Shown here one piece after another: positions 42,818 through 63,463 of a DNA stretch of 64,000 bases. Location of the stretch: positions 62,001-126,000 of IMG/VR virus record IMGVR_UViG_3300049846_001037; one strand, 5' to 3'. Within the stretch, counting starts at the first letter, position 1. The number at the start of each line of letters is the position of its first letter. A program made the position numbers and the translations under genes. The stretch comes from a virus. The notes under the pieces are model-generated. The model searched no databases. It was not told the DNA's origin and saw only the letters and a list, made by a program, of their open reading frames with translations.

Positions 42818-43050
42818 CTTCCCATCTTCCAGTATTTTGAGGTAGGAGACATCTTACCAAATGTCTCCTTCAAGAATTGTATTACTTTTTTAGAGCATGT
42901 CGGGCAAAGACAGATATGGTCGTGGTCTATGTAGTTGGGCTGCTTCTTGCTGCGCCCATAGTGAATCTCGCCCAGAATCGTTGCCTTCGAGTAGAGGACG
43001 TACTCTTTGCCGCAGCCGGTACATTCCTCTTTGATTTCTTTATTTGCCAT
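42814..43050 (-). CDS. Zinc-binding small protein (78 aa)
   Basis: CTGCGKEY near 10 and CLCPTCSKK near 48 provide four to five Cys ligands; DHDH between them may add His. It overlaps the HAD gene by 11 nt. Unknown role. Confidence 0.65.
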   Translation of the reverse strand: MANKEIKEECTGCGKEYVLYSKATILGEIHYGRSKKQPNYIDHDHICLCPTCSKKVIQFLKETFGKMSPTSKYWKMGR

Positions 43051-43540
43051 TGAAGTACTCGATAACTTGGTCGGCTATTTCCCGTGTCAGACCATCCTCA
43101 TTTCTTGTTTGAAACAGATGATCCATTAGGTGGTCCATGTCGCCGTCATCGTCCAGTATTGCGAACTTCTCAACCACATGGTCATCGAGCCACTTCTGTA
43201 TCTCTTGTCCTCGATGTTCAAAGAGTCTTGGCGTCTTCCCCACGATGCGACTGGGATTGATGCCAAGAAGATTGGAGAGTCGCCGCTTCAAGTCATCGAG
43301 CGAATAGTGCAGTCGCCAAGTTGAACTGACCACAATATTTAGATCTGGAACCTTATCCATGATTCGCTTTAGATGGATGACGAACTCTTGGCCGATGTCT
43401 AAGTCCCACCTAGCATTCTCATAGTCAGCGACAAGTTGCTTCTCATAACGTTTACGAGATGCTTTACGCATCTCGTATGACACCTTGAACCACTTTGCGG
43501 AGTTCAAAACTCCGTCGATGTCGAGGAAGAGAACCTTCAT
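43040..43540 (-). CDS. HAD-superfamily phosphatase (RNA-repair 'SAKR' HAD-like)
   Basis: 166 aa. Motif I VLFLDIDGVLNS (Asp7, Asp9), motif II VVSSTWRLHY (Ser/Thr), and motif IV FAILDDDGDM. The combination DIDGVLN plus SSTWR is typical of HAD domains found in 'Swiss-army-knife' RNA-repair proteins. A 3'/5' phosphatase role in RNA end repair is an inference from the family. Immediately downstream of tRNA-Glu in the transcript. Confidence 0.7.
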   Translation of the reverse strand: MKVLFLDIDGVLNSAKWFKVSYEMRKASRKRYEKQLVADYENARWDLDIGQEFVIHLKRIMDKVPDLNIVVSSTWRLHYSLDDLKRRLSNLLGINPSRIVGKTPRLFEHRGQEIQKWLDDHVVEKFAILDDDGDMDHLMDHLFQTRNEDGLTREIADQVIEYFNGK

Positions 43541-43634: not shown

Positions 43635-43711
43635 TGGTAGCCCCTACGGGATTCGAACCCGTGATCTCCTCCTTGAGAGGGAGGCGTCATAGACCGCTAG
43701 ACTAAGAGGCC
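43635..43711 (-). tRNA. tRNA-Glu(CTC)
   Basis: Acceptor GGCCTCT/AGGGGCT with G.T pairs, anticodon arm CCTCC-CTCTCAA-GGAGG, encoded CCA. Discriminator A rather than the G usual for Glu. Confidence 0.9.
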
Positions 43712-43936
43712 GTAAATGCCCGTTTCTTTTAGCTTCAACCCCAAAGCATACCTCAGGAGCTTATCACCGCAAGTATCTCCCTACCTCTGCCTTGCTCTAC
43801 CCACATCTTTTGAGCCCATGATTGCGGCACAGACTCATATCCTATGGGTGAATCTCTGCATGTCTAGAAACGTGACTTGAAAGACCCGCCTTTTTTACTC
43901 CGATACTCCCTGCTAAAAAGGCTAAACATCTGGAGC

Positions 43937-44013
43937 TGGCTTCGGTAGGTGCCGGTCCCTTATCACCATCTATCCCTGCGCTGGGGATTGTCCTACGCTT
44001 AGACGATACCGAA
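43937..44013 (-). ncRNA. Degenerate tRNA-like element A (Gln-like D-arm)
   Basis: Seven-bp acceptor TTCGGTA/TACCGAA, discriminator G and encoded CCA; D-arm TCGTCTAAGCGTAGGAC, which differs from tRNA-Gln(CTG) only in ACGG to AGCG; anticodon-like arm ATCCC-CAGCGCA-GGGAT without U33. No TTCGA T-loop: the 24 nt before the acceptor form at best a weak GGTG/CACC stem. Length 77. Lies in a 500-nt gene-free spacer (43712-44211) whose first 225 nt hold nothing I can identify. It could be a decayed tRNA-Gln copy or a tRNA mimic. Confidence 0.45.
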
Positions 44014-44019
44014 TGGGAA

Positions 44020-44129
44020 CTTTTTCTCTACGCCCTAATGCAGCGCTGCTTGGGGACCAGTCCTACTCGACCCTGTGGATGGAGCGACCACCCTGGCGGG
44101 TTGTTTCAGAGCGTTTCGTAGAGAAAAAG
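44020..44129 (-). ncRNA. Structured spacer RNA closed by a 13-bp helix
   Basis: Perfect inverted repeat CTTTTTCTCTACG ... CGTAGAGAAAAAG encloses 84 nt with internal hairpins (ACCC-GCCA-GGGT; the palindrome GCAGCGCTGC). It sits between tRNA-like elements A and C. The strand is not certain; assigned minus by context. Confidence 0.4.
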
Positions 44130-44130
44130 A

Positions 44131-44204
44131 TGGTAGAGTCGCTGGGTCGTTAGTCCAGATAACAGGCCCCAACGGCCTGTGTCTTACGCTTAAACGACAA
44201 CTCT
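44131..44204 (-). ncRNA. Degenerate tRNA-like element C (Gln-like)
   Basis: Acceptor AGAGTTG/CGACTCT, discriminator A, encoded CCA; D-arm TCGTTTAAGCGTAAGAC, close to tRNA-Gln(TTG) and 15/17 identical to element A. Anticodon-like arm CAGGC-CGTTGGG-GCCTG keeps TTG at 34-36 but has G at 33. The T-arm has canonical length (17 nt, CTGG/CCAG) but its loop CTAACGA is not TTCRA. Total 74 nt, exactly normal. Confidence 0.5.
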
Positions 44205-44211
44205 TTTTAAT

Positions 44212-44288
44212 TGGTGGTCTCGGCTGGGCTCGAACCAGCGACCCCAGAGTTATCAACTCTGTGCTCTAACCAACTGAGCTACGAGACC
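44212..44288 (-). tRNA. tRNA-Ile(GAT)
   Basis: Acceptor GGTCTCG/CGAGACC, anticodon arm CAGAG-TTGATAA-CTCTG, T-loop TTCGAGC, discriminator A, encoded CCA. Reads AUC/AUU. Confidence 0.95.
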
Positions 44289-46124: not shown

Positions 46125-46198
46125 TGGCTGGGAGGGCTGGAATCGAACCAACATTCACGGAGTCAAAGTCCGTTGTCCTACCGTTGAACGACCTCCCA
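46125..46198 (-). tRNA. tRNA-Gln(TTG)
   Basis: Acceptor TGGGAGG/CCTCCCA, D-arm TCGTTCAACGGTAGGAC, loop CTTTGAC, T-loop TTCGATT, discriminator G, encoded CCA. Confidence 0.95.
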
Positions 46199-46219: not shown

Positions 46220-46293
46220 TGGTAGCCAGGGCTGGAATCGAACCAACATACTGGGTTTCAGAGACCCATGTCCTACCGTTAGACGACCTGGCT
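46220..46293 (-). tRNA. tRNA-Gln(CTG)
   Basis: Acceptor AGCCAGG/CCTGGCT, D-arm TCGTCTAACGGTAGGAC, loop CTCTGAA, discriminator A, encoded CCA. The upstream coding frame ends 15 nt inside it. Confidence 0.95.
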
Positions 46294-47070: not shown

Positions 47071-47158
47071 TCTCCTACAAGACTAAACCATCTTTTTATC
47101 GATAGTCAGTTCACGCTTCCCGTAGCCCACGCCTACTCACTGATTTGCCGACATCTTT

Positions 47159-47225
47159 GATGAAGGGAGGATTCTCACCTCCAACCCCTTATGGGTCCAG
47201 ATTATCTTCTGCTCCAAACTTCATC
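47159..47225 (-). ncRNA. tRNA-like element D with TGAGAAT T-loop
   Basis: Acceptor-like GATGAAG/CTTCATC, then a canonical-size T-arm GGAGG-TGAGAAT-CCTCC directly before the 3' strand. An inner hairpin CAGA-AGATAA-TCTG and a second GACCC-ATAAG-GGGTT follow the 5' strand. No CCA after the acceptor. Shares its T-loop and inner hairpin with element E. Confidence 0.4.
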
Positions 47226-47282
47226 CCTTTCGGGACTCAAAGACCATAAAGCAAAGCAGCCCATCGGTATAGCCACTACTTG

Positions 47283-47360
47283 GTTGAGGAGGGATTCTCA
47301 CCCTCAGTCATAGACCCGGATCATCTTCCGCTCAGTCCTGATGTTACTCAGAACCCCAAC
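47283..47360 (-). ncRNA. tRNA-like element E with TGAGAAT T-loop
   Basis: Acceptor-like GTTGGGG/CCTCAAC; D-arm-like CTGA-GTAACA-TCAG; hairpin CGGA-AGATGA-TCCG, the same as in D but with A-T and T-A pairs changed to G-C and C-G; T-arm AGGG-TGAGAAT-CCCT. The sequence ends CCTCAACCA, so a CCA overlaps the acceptor. 78 nt. Confidence 0.4.
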
Positions 47361-47380: not shown

Positions 47381-47992
47381 CTATTCCAAAGACCTGAACA
47401 ACTTCTCGTTGTCGCCGCAGAAGGCTTTGAGCCTCTGCTGCCACCTATCAGACTTTACCTTGAACATGATAGGGTGTCCATACTTATCTGTTTCGTTTGA
47501 CTTGCAAACTACGCCTTCTTCTGTGACGCCTTCCATCTTACTCTGTCGGATCGCCTCTGTAAAGTCCTGATTTGCATTACCCCTGTAAACCAATCGGGGT
47601 AGAGGCAGATGACCGAACATCTTTAGAAAGTCTCCAGGCTTCATGATGCCCTTCTTGAAGGTGTCCACGTCCAAAAGGACTACTTCGTGGGGCTCTGCCT
47701 GATGGCGACCTGCGAATGAGTTTGGTCCGTAAAACTCAAAGAAGCAGGTTACTCTCTCGAACCGTTCACGCTTGAATATCTCATCAAGCGCCTTTCCGTA
47801 TCTCTGCAGGACCAGATCTGGGGCCTCGCCCAAGAACTCGTGAGTCCTGTCTATCATTTGGGTTCGACTCCCAAATTTAGAGAAGCCGGTCTTTTTGCTC
47901 CACTCGGCTCTGATGTTTGAGCCGTCCAGTTTGTCGAATGCAAATACAGGTATGTTCTGTACTTGCCGTGGAATCGAAGGATACTCTTTCAT
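47381..47992 (-). CDS. RNA ligase (Rnl family)
   Basis: 203 aa. Nucleotidyltransferase motif I FDKLDGSNIRAEW with Lys21 as the adenylated residue; GFSKFGSR (motif Ia-like); FFEFYGPNSF (IIIa); EEGVVCKS (IV); MFKVKSDRW (V). It would reseal broken RNAs, for example tRNAs cut by host anticodon nucleases, and stands inside the tRNA cluster. Shorter than T4 Rnl2, lacking its C-terminal domain. Confidence 0.85.
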   Translation of the reverse strand: MKEYPSIPRQVQNIPVFAFDKLDGSNIRAEWSKKTGFSKFGSRTQMIDRTHEFLGEAPDLVLQRYGKALDEIFKRERFERVTCFFEFYGPNSFAGRHQAEPHEVVLLDVDTFKKGIMKPGDFLKMFGHLPLPRLVYRGNANQDFTEAIRQSKMEGVTEEGVVCKSNETDKYGHPIMFKVKSDRWQQRLKAFCGDNEKLFRSLE

Positions 47993-49173: not shown

Positions 49174-49185
49174 ATCTTACTTGCC

Positions 49186-49337
49186 TAATCGTGGTCCAGA
49201 TTCCCCACCTGGACTCCTGCACTGGGAGGCACCCTCCCGACTGCTCATCCACCCACCATCCCTACCGCCTATGCGAAGGCTTGAGGGGACAGGAAGATTT
49301 AACCAGCTTCCCACGCATAATGGGACACTCACGATTA
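49186..49337 (-). ncRNA. Multi-hairpin spacer RNA closed by an 8-bp helix
   Basis: TAATCGTG / CACGATTA encloses four hairpins in order: GGAAG/CTTCC, GCCT/AGGC, GGGAGG/CCTCCC and GTCCAG/CTGGAC. The last lies right before the 3' closing strand, as a T-arm would, with loop GTGGGGAAT. The rest of the interior has no gene. Transcribed with the flanking tRNA-Ser genes if real. Confidence 0.35.
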
Positions 49338-49340
49338 AGA

Positions 49341-50940: not shown

Positions 50941-51111
50941 ATGGCTTGCTCCAACGCTCCCAGTGTGCTATCTCTCTCACCTCATCGGTCACAGAGCTTC
51001 GGGCTTGGGTTTCATGGAGCCTTTTCAGGGTAACTGGTTCCGGCAATTACCCAGCGAGTTTTCAAATGGAGCTAACCCTTTTAGGTGTTAGGACTTATGA
51101 TCCCTTTCGGG

Positions 51112-51207
51112 GAGATACCAACCTTGGCGCTCACACGCTGGCAGTTTCAGCCAGTAACCCAAGGTGCCTCAGGCGCAATTGCAATTTACGTCCTGTTACC
51201 GTATCTC
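51112..51207 (-). ncRNA. Structured spacer RNA closed by a 7-bp helix
   Basis: GAGATAC / GTATCTC encloses nested pairings CCTTGG/CCAAGG and a hairpin CTGGC-TGAAACT-GCCAG (5 bp, 7-nt loop). Nearby 51035-51062 holds a further 6-bp hairpin GGGTAA/TTACCC. No coding frame makes sense here. Strand inferred. Confidence 0.35.
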
Positions 51208-51233
51208 TACTCCTCCACTCTTTCTTTTCTAAT

Positions 51234-51773: not shown

Positions 51774-51837
51774 TGGATGAGTGGTGAGGATTCGAACCTC
51801 GGTGTGCGAGCCCGTCCATCGTCGGCTCAACCACTCA
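51774..51837 (-). tRNA. 64-nt truncated tRNA lacking one arm
   Basis: Perfect 7-bp acceptor TGAGTGG/CCACTCA, discriminator T, encoded CCA, and a normal T-arm with loop TTCGAAT. Only one other stem, GAGCC/GGCTC with an 11-nt loop GACGATGGACG, lies between; either the D-arm or the anticodon arm is missing. Its ends are fixed: tRNA-Met lies 7 nt upstream. No anticodon can be assigned. Confidence 0.6.
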
Positions 51838-51921: not shown

Positions 51922-52079
51922 GTGGAACCCTTAGGCATTCCCACATGTCTTCGAATACATGTGAGTCAGCCAAAGGGAGGAAGCCGCTCGTTATGCTGCA
52001 GGCAACTGTCGAGCTTCCCATCGCTGTAAGGGTGGCCAACCTTTCGGCAGTGGACTCCTTGAACAGCTTACCCAATTAC

Positions 52080-52169
52080 TTTCTCCACCATCGTATAGGA
52101 AGCCGAAGGATTCCAACCTCCGATTACCCGCTGGACTTCCCAGAGCCTACGACTGGCTCGGTGGAGAAA
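52080..52169 (-). ncRNA. Cloverleaf-like spacer RNA closed by a 10-bp helix
   Basis: TTTCTCCACC / GGTGGAGAAA encloses a hairpin GAGCC-AGTCGTA-GGCTC (5 bp, 7-nt loop) and a longer stem GGAAGTC/GGCTTCC whose tip is CGGAGG-TTGGAAT-CCTTCG, a T-arm-like loop with one base changed from TTCGAAT. The neighbouring 51922-52079 has further hairpins (CACATGT/ACATGTG; GGAAG...CTCG/CGAG...CTTCC) and no gene. Confidence 0.4.
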
Positions 52170-52179
52170 CTTTCAAAGA

Positions 52180-52359: not shown

Positions 52360-52388
52360 AGTATATTCTATCATTTCCTTGATGTCAA
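52360..52388 (-). promoter_or_regulatory. Strong sigma70 promoter of the tRNA cluster
   Basis: TTGACA, 17 bp, TATACT on the minus strand, with the start expected 5-7 nt before tRNA-Met. Near-perfect host consensus, so the tRNAs can be made by unmodified host polymerase. Confidence 0.85.
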
Positions 52389-52423
52389 CAAAAAACCCTC
52401 GAACCTTTTCTGGGGTCCGAGGG
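52389..52423 (-). terminator. Rho-independent terminator ending the 52.4-52.6 kb transcript
   Basis: Stem CCCTCGGACC / GGTTCGAGGG (10 bp, one G.T), 8-nt loop, then TTTTTT. It insulates the tRNA promoter from the unit upstream. Confidence 0.85.
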
Positions 52424-52620
52424 CTAAAGGGGTTTTGCCAGGTAGTTCTATCCTTTAACCATCAGACCTCTGTCCTGCTTCCTCACTTGCTAGGGTATAC
52501 CATGAGGCCAAAGCAGGGAGCGACATTCTATCGCATGGGATAGAATGCTGGCTCTGGGATTGAATGGCGCTAAGGATGTTCTGCATGACGTGTTCTCGAC
52601 TTTCTCCTGTGTGTTTCAGT
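52424..52620 (-). ncRNA. Candidate novel small RNA (own promoter and terminator)
   Basis: A ~200-nt stretch flanked upstream by promoter copy F and downstream by a strong terminator, with no convincing gene. It contains a perfect hairpin CATTCTATC-CCATGC-GATAGAATG (52524-52547), whose 5' arm TTCTATCC could instead pair with GGATAGAA at 52446-52453, i.e. two exclusive folds. A 43-codon frame (52455-52586) exists but lacks a ribosome site. Possibly a regulatory RNA or antisense to host RNA. Confidence 0.5.
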
Positions 52621-52627
52621 GATGTAT

Positions 52628-52658
52628 CTATCTTATTAAATTTCTATAAAAAAGTCAA
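52628..52658 (-). promoter_or_regulatory. Phage promoter motif copy F, overlapping a sigma70-like promoter
   Basis: Minus strand TTTTATA-N6-TAATA-AGATAG; also readable as TTGACT-17-TAAGAT. It is the only copy with a good -35, so this unit could be used by both host-type and phage-modified polymerase. Confidence 0.55.
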
Positions 52659-52664
52659 GCTTTT

Positions 52665-58527: not shown

Positions 58528-60945
58528 TTACAAAAGTTTTTCCATTCCATCTAGAATCAGTAGGAAACTCTTCTCTTCCTTGTAATCCCTTTCCCTTCTT
58601 ACCCTGAAAGTAATTACACTCTTGGGTCTCAGCATAGCCTTGAGAGCGTCAACCCTCTCTATCTTATCAATATCATTGGACCAGCAGATGAATCTGCCCA
58701 ACTTTGATCCGTTCTTGACATTGAGGAATCCAACAGAGTTTCCAGTCAATTGGTTCTTCTTAACGAACCATGAGTTGACCACACCAAAGACCCTGATGGT
58801 GGTTCCGACATTCATCTTCTCAAGAGCGCTGAATGGCATGATCTTGTCGTCAATGCTGTACTTGGCGCTGACAGCCTCTTTGTCGATAAGGTCAATGAGC
58901 GAGTTGAATATCTGATCGCCACAATATTCGGACTCTTCGAGAATGGCATCCACAGCCGTTGGGTTCATTGGGTAGTCTAGATCCTTGACCTTTCTCATGG
59001 ACACATACTGCTGAATCAAGTCATATCGGAGGCTCAACTTGTTCTTGTCGCCATTGATATCCAAGAATCTGTCAAAGCATCCAGAGTGTATCAGGGCCAA
59101 CATGGATGACTTATTTACCTCTTTGGTGCTGACCTTAGAAACAAAGTCCCTAAAGTTGTTGAACGGCCTCTTCTTGATGATGGCGTTCATTGCGTCTTCG
59201 CCAAGGTCTTTGATGAAGTTGAAGCCGCTTAGAACGTGGTCGCTCTTAGGCGTGAACCTGATTTCGCTCTCATTGATGTCTGGCGGCAAGACCTTGATCT
59301 TCATCTTCTTGGCTTCAAAGAAGTAGTCCACGAACTTGTTGGACTTATCGTTCTGGTTTACCGCATTGGGTGTGTTGCTGAGGATGCTGGCAACAAACTC
59401 GATAGGGTAGTAATGCTTGAAATACATGCAGTAAACAGCCAACTGCGAGTATTCAACTGCGTGAGCCTTATTGAAGCCGTATTCCGCAAAGGACTTGATC
59501 TGATAGAACAACTCATCAGAGGCTTCTACGGTGCAGGTTATCTTCCTGAATGGAAGACCCTTGTCGTCTACACCCGTCTCAACAGTATTGACATCTTGGG
59601 CAGTTGTTGGGATATCGCTATCGCTGTAGACAATGCGGGTAACTGGAACCCTATCCTTCATGCCACGCTTTCTGCAGCCATCAATGAATCTCTTCTCGTG
59701 TTTGACGAAGGGATTGAAGCCCTTGGCAATGTCGGCTTTGCCACTGCTCATGGCTTTACGGAAGTTGTCGGCTTCGTCAGCAGAGAACCCAGACAATGCC
59801 TGAGCGATTTCCATGACCTGTTCCTGATAGACGATGACGCAGTATGTCTCTTTCAGGAACTTCTCTAGGGACGGATGGATGTAGCTGTAGGGGATGTTTC
59901 CCGTCTTGGTCTTCCAGAGTTTTTCACCCATTTCAATGGGGCCTGGGCGATTGAGAGCATTGAGGGTAACGATGTCCTTGAACTCAATACCCTGCATGCG
60001 ATGGAGCATCATGCGGACCCAATCTCTTTCAAACTGGAAGATGCCTACCGTGTTGCCCTTGGCGAACTCTTCCATCAAAGCCTTGTCGTAGATGTCGATG
60101 TCCCACAGGTCGATATCCTTGCCGTGGTTCTTCTTGACGAATTTGACGGCATCGTGCAGCACCGTAAGGGTGTTGAGTCCAAGGAAGTCCATCTTGACCA
60201 GACCCAACTTGCTCAACTCTTTGCTGCCACCAGCCTCTTCAAAGCAGGTAACGATCTTGTCTTTGGCTTTCTCAAGACCGCAGAAGTTCATGATGTTGCT
60301 TGGAGCAATAACCACACCGGCGGCATGCTGGCTCAGATGTCTTACGTTGCCCTGCAATTTCTTGCAGAGACCAAAGAGATCCATGTATGAATACTTGTCG
60401 AAGAACTTCTTGACACCATCTCTGAGGTTGTAGGCATCCTCTAGGGTGTCTGAGAACTTCATGGCTTTGGTTGCTTCGTTAACCTCTTCGTGGGGAATAC
60501 CCTTCACCCTTGAGATGTCCTTAATAACAGCCTTGGCCTGCATTCTTCCGAAGGCAGCAATGGAGGCAACGTTCTCCTTACCGTATTTCTCAATGACATA
60601 CTCTTTGACAAGATCTCTCTTAGCATCCTCAAAGTCCATGTCAATATCTGGGAACTCTGCGCTCTTAGTCTTTATCGGATCTTTCTTTAGAGCCACTGGG
60701 TCTTGGTCAGTAATGTCGAGTAGGTACGTGACCAGTAAGTTGTTGGTGTTTTCAACCTTCCCGCTCTTCTTAGTCTGTTCGGCTACAGAGTAGAAGTAGT
60801 CCAAGATATTGGTCTTGTAGTCCTCAATCTGAGCCTCGATTATGGCAAGCTCTTCATTGAGTCTCTTGGTATATTCCTTGTTCTCACCAAGACCCTTCTT
60901 GTCTAGGCGGCTAAAGCAGTCTTGTTTGAAGTCAGCGAAAATCAC
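58528..60945 (-). CDS. dnaE: DNA polymerase III alpha, C-terminal (catalytic) half
   Basis: 805 aa. About 95 novel helical residues precede EFPDIDMDFED (98-107), which holds the catalytic Asp residues of the palm. VKMDFLGLNTLTVL (fingers/third Asp region), NTVGIFQFERDWVRMM, LNRPGPIEMG, VYQEQVMEIAQALSGFSADE and SFAEYGFNKAHAVEYS are standard Pol III alpha motifs; an OB-type end (TTIRVFGVVNSWFVKKNQ) closes it. The PHP domain and start of the core are in a separate gene (61372-62895). The two halves must associate to form an active polymerase. Confidence 0.92.
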   Translation of the reverse strand: MIFADFKQDCFSRLDKKGLGENKEYTKRLNEELAIIEAQIEDYKTNILDYFYSVAEQTKKSGKVENTNNLLVTYLLDITDQDPVALKKDPIKTKSAEFPDIDMDFEDAKRDLVKEYVIEKYGKENVASIAAFGRMQAKAVIKDISRVKGIPHEEVNEATKAMKFSDTLEDAYNLRDGVKKFFDKYSYMDLFGLCKKLQGNVRHLSQHAAGVVIAPSNIMNFCGLEKAKDKIVTCFEEAGGSKELSKLGLVKMDFLGLNTLTVLHDAVKFVKKNHGKDIDLWDIDIYDKALMEEFAKGNTVGIFQFERDWVRMMLHRMQGIEFKDIVTLNALNRPGPIEMGEKLWKTKTGNIPYSYIHPSLEKFLKETYCVIVYQEQVMEIAQALSGFSADEADNFRKAMSSGKADIAKGFNPFVKHEKRFIDGCRKRGMKDRVPVTRIVYSDSDIPTTAQDVNTVETGVDDKGLPFRKITCTVEASDELFYQIKSFAEYGFNKAHAVEYSQLAVYCMYFKHYYPIEFVASILSNTPNAVNQNDKSNKFVDYFFEAKKMKIKVLPPDINESEIRFTPKSDHVLSGFNFIKDLGEDAMNAIIKKRPFNNFRDFVSKVSTKEVNKSSMLALIHSGCFDRFLDINGDKNKLSLRYDLIQQYVSMRKVKDLDYPMNPTAVDAILEESEYCGDQIFNSLIDLIDKEAVSAKYSIDDKIMPFSALEKMNVGTTIRVFGVVNSWFVKKNQLTGNSVGFLNVKNGSKLGRFICWSNDIDKIERVDALKAMLRPKSVITFRVRRERDYKEEKSFLLILDGMEKLL

Positions 60946-61139
60946 TTTGACAACTCCTTAATCTTATCCAAAGTCTTACGTTGTTCAACCAAGTCCTTTT
61001 GATCATCTATAGCAAATATGGCCTGATCCAAAATTCCGTCTAATTCATGGTCTCTCCACTTTTCACTGAGACCAATGTCTTTCCTAAGAATGGCCTGCCA
61101 CCGCTCTCTTTGTCCATTAATCTGGTCTTTTGTCCACAT
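60942..61139 (-). CDS. Small helical protein between polymerase halves (65 aa)
   Basis: Charged helical peptide (DQINGQRERWQAILRKDIGL, AIDDQKDLVEQRKTLDKIKE). ATGA overlap with the catalytic half downstream and 1-nt overlap with the membrane gene upstream. Unknown; its place suggests later insertion or a bridging role. Confidence 0.65.
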   Translation of the reverse strand: MWTKDQINGQRERWQAILRKDIGLSEKWRDHELDGILDQAIFAIDDQKDLVEQRKTLDKIKELSK

Positions 61140-61375
61140 TACTTTTTCCTCTTTTCACGAAGGTCTTTCTCAAGAGCGTTCAGTATCTCTTGGTTGTTAA
61201 GGTCTGCTCTCTCTATCTGAATCTTTCGCAAGTCTCTTTTGGCCATGATTGGGATGATGACACCAAAAACAACAAACATCGCACCACCGCCAATCAGTCC
61301 AAGCAACCCAAATTTGATGTAGATTGAGAACAGCAAAAACAGAATGATAGATCCAACTATAATCAACTGCATCAT
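61139..61375 (-). CDS. Small membrane protein between polymerase halves (78 aa)
   Basis: Two membrane helices (LIIVGSIILFLLFSIYIKFG and LIGGGAMFVVFGVIIPIMA), then a basic, helical tail. ATGA overlap with the polymerase N-half. A membrane protein here is unexpected; it might anchor replication to a membrane or be unrelated. Confidence 0.65.
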   Translation of the reverse strand: MMQLIIVGSIILFLLFSIYIKFGLLGLIGGGAMFVVFGVIIPIMAKRDLRKIQIERADLNNQEILNALEKDLREKRKK

Positions 61376-62895
61376 TTCTTCTCCAACTCAAAGCCTTCCA
61401 GATTCAACTTGTACTTGGCGCTTGAGCGGGTCTTGTTGATGAACCTGCTGAACAACAAGCCGTGTTCCAGCGGATCAACGTTTGTGATACCTAGACAGTA
61501 GGCTATCAGCGAACCGCCAACTGAACCACGACCTGGACCAGTCATGATATCGTTCTTCTTACACCAGTCGATCAAGTCCCAGACGATAAGGAAGTATTCT
61601 TCAAACTTGAGGTCGCAGATGATTTTGAACTCATCCCTCAGACGAGCCTCATATTTGGTCTTGGCATCATCGTTGTCCTTGTACTTCGGCTTTAACTTCT
61701 TGGCGGCACCTTCCTTGATGAGTTTTAGGAGGAAGTCCTTGGGGCTCATGTCGCCAGAGTCGAACTTTGGCAGATAGACCTCAGTACTTTCAGCCTTGAT
61801 GTTTTCTACTTTCTCCGAGATGGCTATGGTGTTTCTCAGAGACTCCCTAAAAACTTCCTCAGCCATGTATTGCTTGTGGTGTTCCTGCCAAGACTGGAAC
61901 AACTCGTCATAGGACTTGAAGTAGTATTCTCTGGCGTTGTAGAAGTAGCCATCGCTGTCGTCTTCCTGCTTCTTGTCCTTGATCTTCTCTTCCATTACCT
62001 CTTTGTAGACAAAGCCCATACGTCCACCTATCTTCTTGGCCTTCTTTTCCATGAGGACTGGGCTGGGCAATTCCTCTGACGGCTTCTGGAACAGGTTCTC
62101 CTTTTGGCCGTTCTTTAGCTTGATGACCACCTCATGCAGAAGAACGTCTTCCTTCTCTGTGTAGTGGTGGTCCTGCGTTATGATGGTCTTTACGCCATAC
62201 TTCTTAGCCAGACCCATCAGGGCCTCGTTGACCCTCTTCTGTTCATCGACTGGATGCAACTGTAGTTCGATGTAGAAGTCGTCCTTGAAGATCTTCAAGT
62301 ATTGCTTTAGGTAGTCTTCGGCCTTCTCCATGTTGCCCTTGAGAATGGAAGAGGCAATCTGTCCACCCAAACATGCGGAACTGGCAATAATTCCCTCGTG
62401 ATACTTCTCCAGCAACTTGAGGTCTATTCTTGGCTTGTAGTAATACCCCTCAAGGTAAGCCAGAGAACTCAACTTCATGATGTTGTGGTAGCCAGTCTTG
62501 TTCTTTGCCAGAAGGATGACGTGGTTTGACTTTCTGACCGTTGACTTCAAACCCTTGAGGTTTTCAATCTGGTCCGATGGGTCAGCATCCCAGCCGTCAA
62601 ACAGAGGCATGAAGTTGTCCTTCTTGACCTCTAGTTCCTCTAGCTGCTTTTCGGTCCTAGATATCAGACCGGCGTCATCGCAGATATAGGCTTCGATTCC
62701 AAAGATTGGCTTGATGCCCTTCTTCTGGCAGGCATAGTAAAGTTTGAGCCAACCAGAGATGGTGCCGTGGTCAGTCAGAGCAATGGCCTTCATGCCAAGC
62801 CTGCTGGCCTTGTCCACCAAATCCGATATCTGAGAGATGGCGTCTAGTCTGGAATGATCGCTGTGAACATGGAGCGAAACATAGTTGTCAGACAT
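61372..62895 (-). CDS. dnaE: DNA polymerase III alpha, N-terminal half (PHP domain)
   Basis: 507 aa from ATG at 62895 with GAGGG upstream. The PHP domain opens with SLHVHSDHSRLDAIS, then KAIALTDHGTISGWLKLYYA and GIKPIFGIEAYICDD. The core begins near the end with IMTGPGRGSVGGSLIAYCLG and DPLEHGLLFSRFIN, after which E. coli Pol III alpha would reach PDFDVDF within about 10 residues. Here a 20-residue charged tail and a stop follow; catalysis is encoded in 58528-60945. PHP metal ligands appear retained. No intein motif at the break. Confidence 0.92.
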   Translation of the reverse strand: MSDNYVSLHVHSDHSRLDAISQISDLVDKASRLGMKAIALTDHGTISGWLKLYYACQKKGIKPIFGIEAYICDDAGLISRTEKQLEELEVKKDNFMPLFDGWDADPSDQIENLKGLKSTVRKSNHVILLAKNKTGYHNIMKLSSLAYLEGYYYKPRIDLKLLEKYHEGIIASSACLGGQIASSILKGNMEKAEDYLKQYLKIFKDDFYIELQLHPVDEQKRVNEALMGLAKKYGVKTIITQDHHYTEKEDVLLHEVVIKLKNGQKENLFQKPSEELPSPVLMEKKAKKIGGRMGFVYKEVMEEKIKDKKQEDDSDGYFYNAREYYFKSYDELFQSWQEHHKQYMAEEVFRESLRNTIAISEKVENIKAESTEVYLPKFDSGDMSPKDFLLKLIKEGAAKKLKPKYKDNDDAKTKYEARLRDEFKIICDLKFEEYFLIVWDLIDWCKKNDIMTGPGRGSVGGSLIAYCLGITNVDPLEHGLLFSRFINKTRSSAKYKLNLEGFELEKK

Positions 62896-63463
62896 TAACT
62901 TGACCCTCGACCTCAATGTTGTTCTTTACTATCTCAATCTGCCTCATGATGTCTTTCCTCAAATGAGTCAGATTCTTCCACTTATCCAGAACCGTGTAGT
63001 TGATCTGTGACTGCCTCAATACTGGCAGCAACTCCTTCATCAACTTCTCTTCTTTGGCATTCTTGGCCATGTCCTTCTTCTTGATGACGATGGCTTGATA
63101 GTTCCAATGGTTCCTGCGTGTCTTGAACTCTTTCATGTAGTGCTTGTAGAGTTTCTTGTTGCTAAGACGGCAGTAGACGAGATTGCTTATGTGGCTATTC
63201 TCAAAGATGTGAAGCTTTTCGGTGAACTTGTTCAACTTGTAGTTGAAGTAGAGTTCATCATCTCTCTTGAAGTCCTTCATCATGACCATCTCATTGAGAA
63301 CGCCACACAGGTCGTCATGGTCACACTTTACTCTGAACTTGTTCTCTTTGTAGAAGTCACCCATGACATAGATGCCATGCCTCTCCAAGTATTTGGTTAT
63401 CTCCAACTTGGATGAAGGCAGCAAGTCTATGATCATCAGGTATTCTAGTTTTTCGTCACTCAT
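62888..63463 (-). CDS. Hypothetical protein upstream of polymerase (191 aa)
   Basis: Alpha/beta and basic: MIIDLLPSSKLEITKYLERH, YKHYMKEFKTRRNHWNYQAI. Overlaps the polymerase N-half by 8 nt. Could be a replication accessory; not recognised. Confidence 0.65.
   Translation of the reverse strand: MSDEKLEYLMIIDLLPSSKLEITKYLERHGIYVMGDFYKENKFRVKCDHDDLCGVLNEMVMMKDFKRDDELYFNYKLNKFTEKLHIFENSHISNLVYCRLSNKKLYKHYMKEFKTRRNHWNYQAIVIKKKDMAKNAKEEKLMKELLPVLRQSQINYTVLDKWKNLTHLRKDIMRQIEIVKNNIEVEGQVNV

Follow-up and report, generated by a model that had tools for sequence, protein, structure and literature searches.

Stable RNAs without an assigned function have been known from phage tRNA clusters since T4, and the reason why phages carry many tRNAs is debated. 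Within one such cluster we analyzed two tRNA-like elements, A and C, which raise the question of whether they are dead tRNA genes or look-alikes with another job. The stretch of DNA analyzed ("the window") comprises 64,000 nucleotides (bases 62001–126000 of a 205,426-base virus record) of a tailed phage that encodes terminase, portal, DNA polymerase, and GroEL. At 58528–62916 (minus strand), the DNA polymerase is divided between reading frames of 514 and 805 amino acids, which cover successive overlapping parts of phrog_405. An array of 27 tRNAs occupies the minus strand from 37.3 to 52.4 kb of the window and includes a 500-nt spacer, from tRNA-Ile to tRNA-Glu, that holds no convincing gene. 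Read 5′ to 3′ on the minus strand, this spacer consists of C, a structured RNA (B), A, and another structured stretch (Table 1).

Table 1. Position of A and C in the window and of the features discussed with them
Feature	Position in window	Strand	Remarks
HAD domain of "Swiss Army Knife" RNA repair proteins (PF18143, HAD_SAK_2)	43040–43540	minus	Pfam E 9.2e-27
tRNA-Glu(ctc)	43635–43711	minus	downstream of A
Structured spacer, A to tRNA-Glu	43712–43875	minus	fold z-score −2.2
Element A	43937–44013	minus	predicted 77-nt tRNA-like RNA (structure-position alignment and strict cloverleaf scan)
Element B, between C and A	44017–44132	minus	structured spacer RNA, closed by CTTTTTCTCTACG/CGTAGAGAAAAAG
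Element C	44131–44204	minus	predicted 74-nt tRNA-like RNA (structure-position alignment and strict cloverleaf scan)
tRNA-Ile(gat)	44212–44288	minus	directly upstream of C
tRNA-Gln(ttg)	46125–46198	minus	closest kin, 46.3 bits with the A/C model
tRNA-Gln(ctg)	46220–46293	minus	closest kin, 43.7 bits with the A/C model
RNA ligase (PF09414/phrog_548)	47381–47992	minus	relatives in huge phages and XacN1
Sigma-70-like promoter, TTGACA-17-TATACT	52360–52388	minus	11/12 consensus matches, just upstream of the tRNA array

Both elements lie where the earlier note had placed them, and the acceptor, discriminator, CCA, D-arm, and anticodon-like arm that it described are all present on the minus strand. 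The parts follow exact tRNA spacing, with the linker TC, a 4-bp D-stem with a 7-nt loop, one nucleotide, a 5-bp anticodon stem with a 7-nt loop, and a terminal NCCA. Element A is laid out as TTCGGTA, TC, GTCT-AAGCGTA-GGAC, A, ATCCC-CAGCGCA-GGGAT, AGAT, GGTG-12-CACC, TACCGAA, G, and CCA; element C is laid out as AGAGTTG, TC, GTTT-AAGCGTA-AGAC, A, CAGGC-CGTTGGG-GCCTG, TTAT, CTGG-9-CCAG, CGACTCT, A, and CCA. The 7-bp acceptors (TTCGGTA/TACCGAA in A and AGAGTTG/CGACTCT in C) are fully paired, with one G-U in C. CCA is encoded in both elements, and the discriminator is G73 in A and A73 in C.

Both elements retain U8, A14, R15, A21, Y32, and Y48 and have lost G18, U33, G53, T54–C56, and A58. The D-loop is AAGCGTA in A and C versus AACGGTA in both Gln tRNAs, a change of CG to GC that keeps the 7-nt length. 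The exchange of ACGG for AGCG had been read as loss of the whole GG; the exchange is real, but only G18 is gone and one G remains. Position 33 is an adenine in A and a guanine in C, and the anticodon-like loops are CAGCGCA and CGTTGGG, respectively, with a UUG triplet still at positions 34–36 of C. As first described, neither element has U33 or a TTCRA T-loop (the T-region loops are ATAAGGGACCGG and ACTAACGAC), but a T-stem-like hairpin is present at the right place in each (GGTG-12 nt-CACC in A and CTGG-9 nt-CCAG in C). The TGG/CCAG of the hairpin in C is the same as in the T-stem of the Gln tRNAs. Without U33, G18, and TTCRA, A and C are not ordinary decoding tRNAs, in line with the initial description. 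Neither was called by ARAGORN or by Rfam (including RF00005).

The cloverleaf geometry of A and C far exceeds chance. A strict scan, which demands a 7-bp acceptor, a 4-bp D-stem, a 5-bp anticodon stem with a 7-nt loop, NCCA, and tRNA spacing, returned 14 matches in the window, of which 12 are ordinary tRNAs and the other two are A and C; 60 Markov-shuffled windows returned none. When the 500-nt spacer was shuffled 20,000 times, 3 of the shuffles had at least one strict match; the real spacer has two. No CCA cloverleaf without a T-loop was found in the other loci compared in the same strict scan. When the CCA requirement was dropped, A and C remained the sole T-loop-less matches in the window, with 0.25 expected by chance per 64 kb.

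In the window, a covariance model built from A and C matched these two elements and the two Gln tRNAs, with no other match up to E 10; elsewhere in the record it gave no further match up to E 1. This model (R1) was used for kin ranking only, its MAFFT alignment setting the 3′ acceptor of C one column off, and pairs were counted by structure position instead. Matching no tRNAs of the window other than the two for Gln, it bears out the Gln-type character first attributed to A and C. Their D-arms are indeed nearly identical: the D block (linker, D-arm, and A26) agrees at 16 of 18 positions, compared with 11 of 43 (26%) elsewhere (binomial P about 3e-8), indicating that the D-arm was kept or shared as the remaining sequence diverged. 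The sequences thus support a derivation of A and C from a Gln tRNA.

The main rival to a retained role, which we consider unlikely, is that A and C are recently inactivated tRNA pseudogenes, the loops of which were struck (the T-arm perhaps by one replacement event) while the stems have not decayed. Loss of U33, G18, and the T-loop is what abolishes function, and tRNA arrays are hotspots of gene turnover. It also fits this explanation that no homologue turned up when the spacer was searched by blastn in 50,697 phage records and that C misfolds thermodynamically (see below). However, the loss of helix pairing expected of a tRNA pseudogene is absent, with 0 of 16 pairs broken in either copy. In a comparison of within-genome paralogues, which presupposes descent from a Gln tRNA and in which the stems could have differed before the loops were lost, 9 and 11 of the 16 acceptor, D-, and anticodon-stem pairs of A are changed on both sides relative to the Gln tRNAs, as are 8 and 7 of the 16 pairs of C. 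Between A and C, all 20 pairs including the T-stem are intact, and 12 are changed on both sides; at this base composition, two randomly drawn bases form a standard pair about 36% of the time. The conserved D block and the intact CCA in both copies also speak against inactivation.

Changes on both sides of 7–11 of 16 pairs without a single break make plain decay unlikely and argue for maintenance of the helices. To this extent the earlier view that random decay is improbable holds, although a recent loss confined to the loops is possible if the ancestors of A and C were tRNAs with already different stems. That the same three sites were lost twice, each time with other loop sequences, makes such a recent event less likely.

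Thermodynamic folding distinguishes the two elements. The cloverleaf of A lies 0.8–1.7 kcal/mol above the minimum (e.g. −19.1 versus an MFE of −20.8 kcal/mol), which is normal for tRNA; compared with shuffles, its fold is no more stable (z −0.2). The cloverleaf of C lies 8.4 kcal/mol above the lowest-energy fold, whereas the largest gap among 41 real tRNAs is 7.8. This lowest-energy fold is a rod in which the D strand pairs with the T-loop (GTCGTT/AACGAC), and C may therefore be a rod inside the cell; its acceptor and anticodon stems are firm in folding. By folding energy, the cloverleaf proposed for both elements suits A, which is near its MFE, whereas for C the rod is favored.

Relatives of the phage were sought via RNA ligase, the HAD protein, terminase, GroEL, and UvsX, with terminase also searched in genome contigs; none carrying this region was recovered. 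Judged by terminase, the closest relatives (81% and 58%) are on contigs 12–39 kb long, in which the spacer found no match. Degenerate D-arm scans of IMG/VR returned four contigs. One of them (L003, 2427–2522, plus strand) carries, between two genes, a tRNA-like element that shares the unusual D-arm (GTCTAAGCGTAGGAC) and has a perfect acceptor (GCCGGGG/CCCCGGC) and a normal T-arm; its anticodon region is disordered, with no ordinary anticodon arm. The remaining three have no tRNA-like context and are about as numerous as chance predicts. In genome contigs, the same D-arm pattern gave 0 matches versus about 30 estimated by chance, so no weight was placed on this result. Searches of the A/C region for tmRNA pieces and Rfam families found none. 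A likeness to tRNA-Pyl, which also has neither GG nor TTC, was discarded because there is no CUA anticodon.

Quite unlikely is a second alternative, that A and C are processing punctuation, i.e. cleavage marks that release B and the further spacer RNA and have no later role. B fills almost the entire gap from C to A and is highly structured (z −3.4, with 0 of 100 shuffles as stable; z −2.6 in a separate estimate), and several other structured RNAs lie between tRNAs of the array. Structured gaps were found at 49174–49340 (z −3.2), 51922–52035 (z −2.8), and 52400–52664 (z −3.5), to be read against a coding control with a mean of −0.6 and an sd of 1.3, in which one coding stretch reaches −5.6. 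However, RNase P and RNase Z use the elbow (PMC4810234), which is missing from both A and C, and ordinary tRNAs would serve better as cleavage marks.

The structured and tRNA-like gap RNAs of the array matched no other Rfam family. On the minus strand, a strongly structured 293-nt gap between tRNA-Trp and tRNA-Pro (50941–51233, z −3.0) is also without an Rfam match. A 64-nt mini tRNA-like element at 51774–51837 (minus) has a 7-bp acceptor (TGAGTGG/CCACTCA), a T-arm (GAGG-TTCGAAT-CCTC), and a TCCA end; ordinary D- and anticodon arms are absent, and neither ARAGORN nor Rfam calls it. A 111-nt tRNA-like element at 51923–52033 (minus, z −2.8) has the acceptor ACCCTTA/TAAGGGT, a TCCA end, and a hairpin with a ATTCGAAG loop. 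Both thus combine acceptor, CCA, and a TTCGAA loop without a full cloverleaf. In the 112-nt structured RNA at 52068–52179 (minus, z −2.7), the ends pair in a 10-bp stem, the hairpin GGAGG-TTGGAAT-CCTTC resembles a T-arm, and a TCGTA loop may form a pseudoknot with TACGA. Two related elements at 47140–47340 (minus) display T-arm-like hairpins around TGAGAAT and D-arm-like CAGAAGATAATCTG and CGGAAGATGATCCG; the downstream one has a perfect end stem (GATGAAG/CTTCATC), and a scan of IMG/VR with their motif gave no match. Elsewhere in the record, at about 204.5 kb (L121, 502–596, minus), a 95-nt element with a TTCGAAT arm and a CCA end lies beside tRNA-Met; it is tRNA-Pro according to ARAGORN, is uncalled by Rfam, and is probably another tRNA-like RNA.

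Among known systems, T4 carries small stable RNAs of unassigned role beside its tRNA genes (PMC9697503). Its rnaC and rnaD resemble A and C in being same-strand non-tRNA RNAs in a phage tRNA cluster, but are 139 and 119 nt long, whereas A and C are full cloverleafs of 74–77 nt. In addition, rnaC keeps a canonical TTCGAAT T-arm, unlike the T-loop-less A and C, and the search of 50,697 phage records revealed no sequence similarity of the spacer to either RNA. The bacterial Y RNA YrlA is likewise a noncoding tRNA mimic tied to RNA repair and a proposed anticodon-nuclease competitor. However, its tRNA-like domain has conserved D- and T-loops, whereas A and C have an altered D-loop and no T-loop. 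YrlA partners the Ro60 (TROVE) protein and is associated with Ro60/RtcB operons; the 205-kb record, possibly incomplete, yielded neither a TROVE nor an RtcB gene. GOLLD and ROOL are ornate structured RNAs, of unassigned function and often near phage tRNA islands (PMC12286853); they are hundreds of nucleotides long and unrelated to A and C, and no Rfam match to them occurs here. With an ordinary phage tRNA-Gln, A and C share cloverleaf spacing, D-stem, linkers, and encoded CCA, but differ by the absence of U33, G18, and TTCRA and by remodeled acceptor and anticodon stems.

Other tRNA-rich phages do contain strict cloverleafs without TTCRA. The clear tRNAs among them keep U33 and a readable anticodon, the other T-less matches are mostly AT-rich stretches of chance type, and none in this survey showed the joint loss of T-loop and U33 seen in A and C. 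Some otherwise normal tRNAs of the huge phages LR745208, LR745206, and LR756502 and of Arthrobacter phage Racecar have T-loops that begin with ATC (e.g. ATCGTTA, ATCGTGC, and ATCGAAA), often with A54-T58 in place of T54-A58, and retain U33, the anticodon, and mostly the D-loop GG.

A and C might also be charged and act off the ribosome, as amino acid carriers for a nonribosomal reaction, a role that we regard as highly improbable. The nonproteinogenic tRNA-Gly of staphylococci is a precedent, and acceptor, discriminator, and CCA are intact, A having U1-A72 and G73 as in tRNA-Gln(ttg) and C having A1-U72 and A73 as in tRNA-Gln(ctg); however, no aminoacyl-tRNA-using enzyme is found among the neighboring proteins tested. 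That A and C are working tRNAs with an odd elbow, like those of mitochondria or the A54 T-loop tRNAs known from huge phages, is scarcely credible: the latter also combine paired stems with recoded, non-TTCRA T-loops (ATCGT, ATCGA), but keep U33, a readable anticodon, and nearly always the D-loop GG, which A and C do not.

We therefore tentatively favor the explanation that A and C are stable, non-decoding tRNA-like RNAs, descended from phage tRNA-Gln with an altered D-loop and serving as tRNA mimics. More generally, they are probably look-alike tRNAs with another job and not dead genes. Their position in the array, the encoded CCA, and the promoter-like site suggest that they would be transcribed with the array and then trimmed like its tRNAs; this site sits about 8 kb upstream of A and C, and a single spanning transcript is presumed. 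We infer that both RNAs would be stable in the cell. Because RNase P normally clamps the elbow, their processing may be poor.

Selection would keep the helices, the inner tertiary positions, and the D-arm sequence, whereas the elbow (G18 with T54-T55-C56-A58) and the U-turn (U33) would have been abandoned. U33 and the elbow are needed for decoding. Having given them up, A and C should not work as adaptors on the ribosome or be recognized normally by elbow readers, and decoding by either is very unlikely. Elbow readers, including the reliance of RNase P and RNase Z on the elbow, have been reviewed (PMC4810234). The kept acceptor, D-arm, and CCA would leave room for a synthetase, nuclease, repair, or modification enzyme, and as mimics A and C would occupy or titrate a tRNA-binding protein. 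The most plausible setting would be a tRNA attack/repair conflict, the array having spare tRNAs, an RNA ligase, and a HAD RNA-repair protein; jumbo phages pair tRNAs with RNA repair versus host attacks on translation (PMC7824862). A and C are possibly decoys in such a conflict, the target being conjecture; the regulatory role that was also suggested at first is likewise hypothetical. The lost U33 weakens the case for an anticodon-nuclease decoy in particular, which would be expected to keep it.

It is doubtful that such elbow-less and U33-less cloverleafs constitute a distinct class of phage RNA, derived from tRNA-Gln, unusable by the ribosome, engaging a tRNA-binding protein (a defense nuclease or a host tRNA enzyme), and standing amid several such RNAs of the array. 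As standard tools call neither element, A and C serve as a warning that such genes escape tRNA finders. If the mimicry explanation is true, they would be small, clean test objects for phage tRNA look-alikes that blunt tRNA-targeting defenses.
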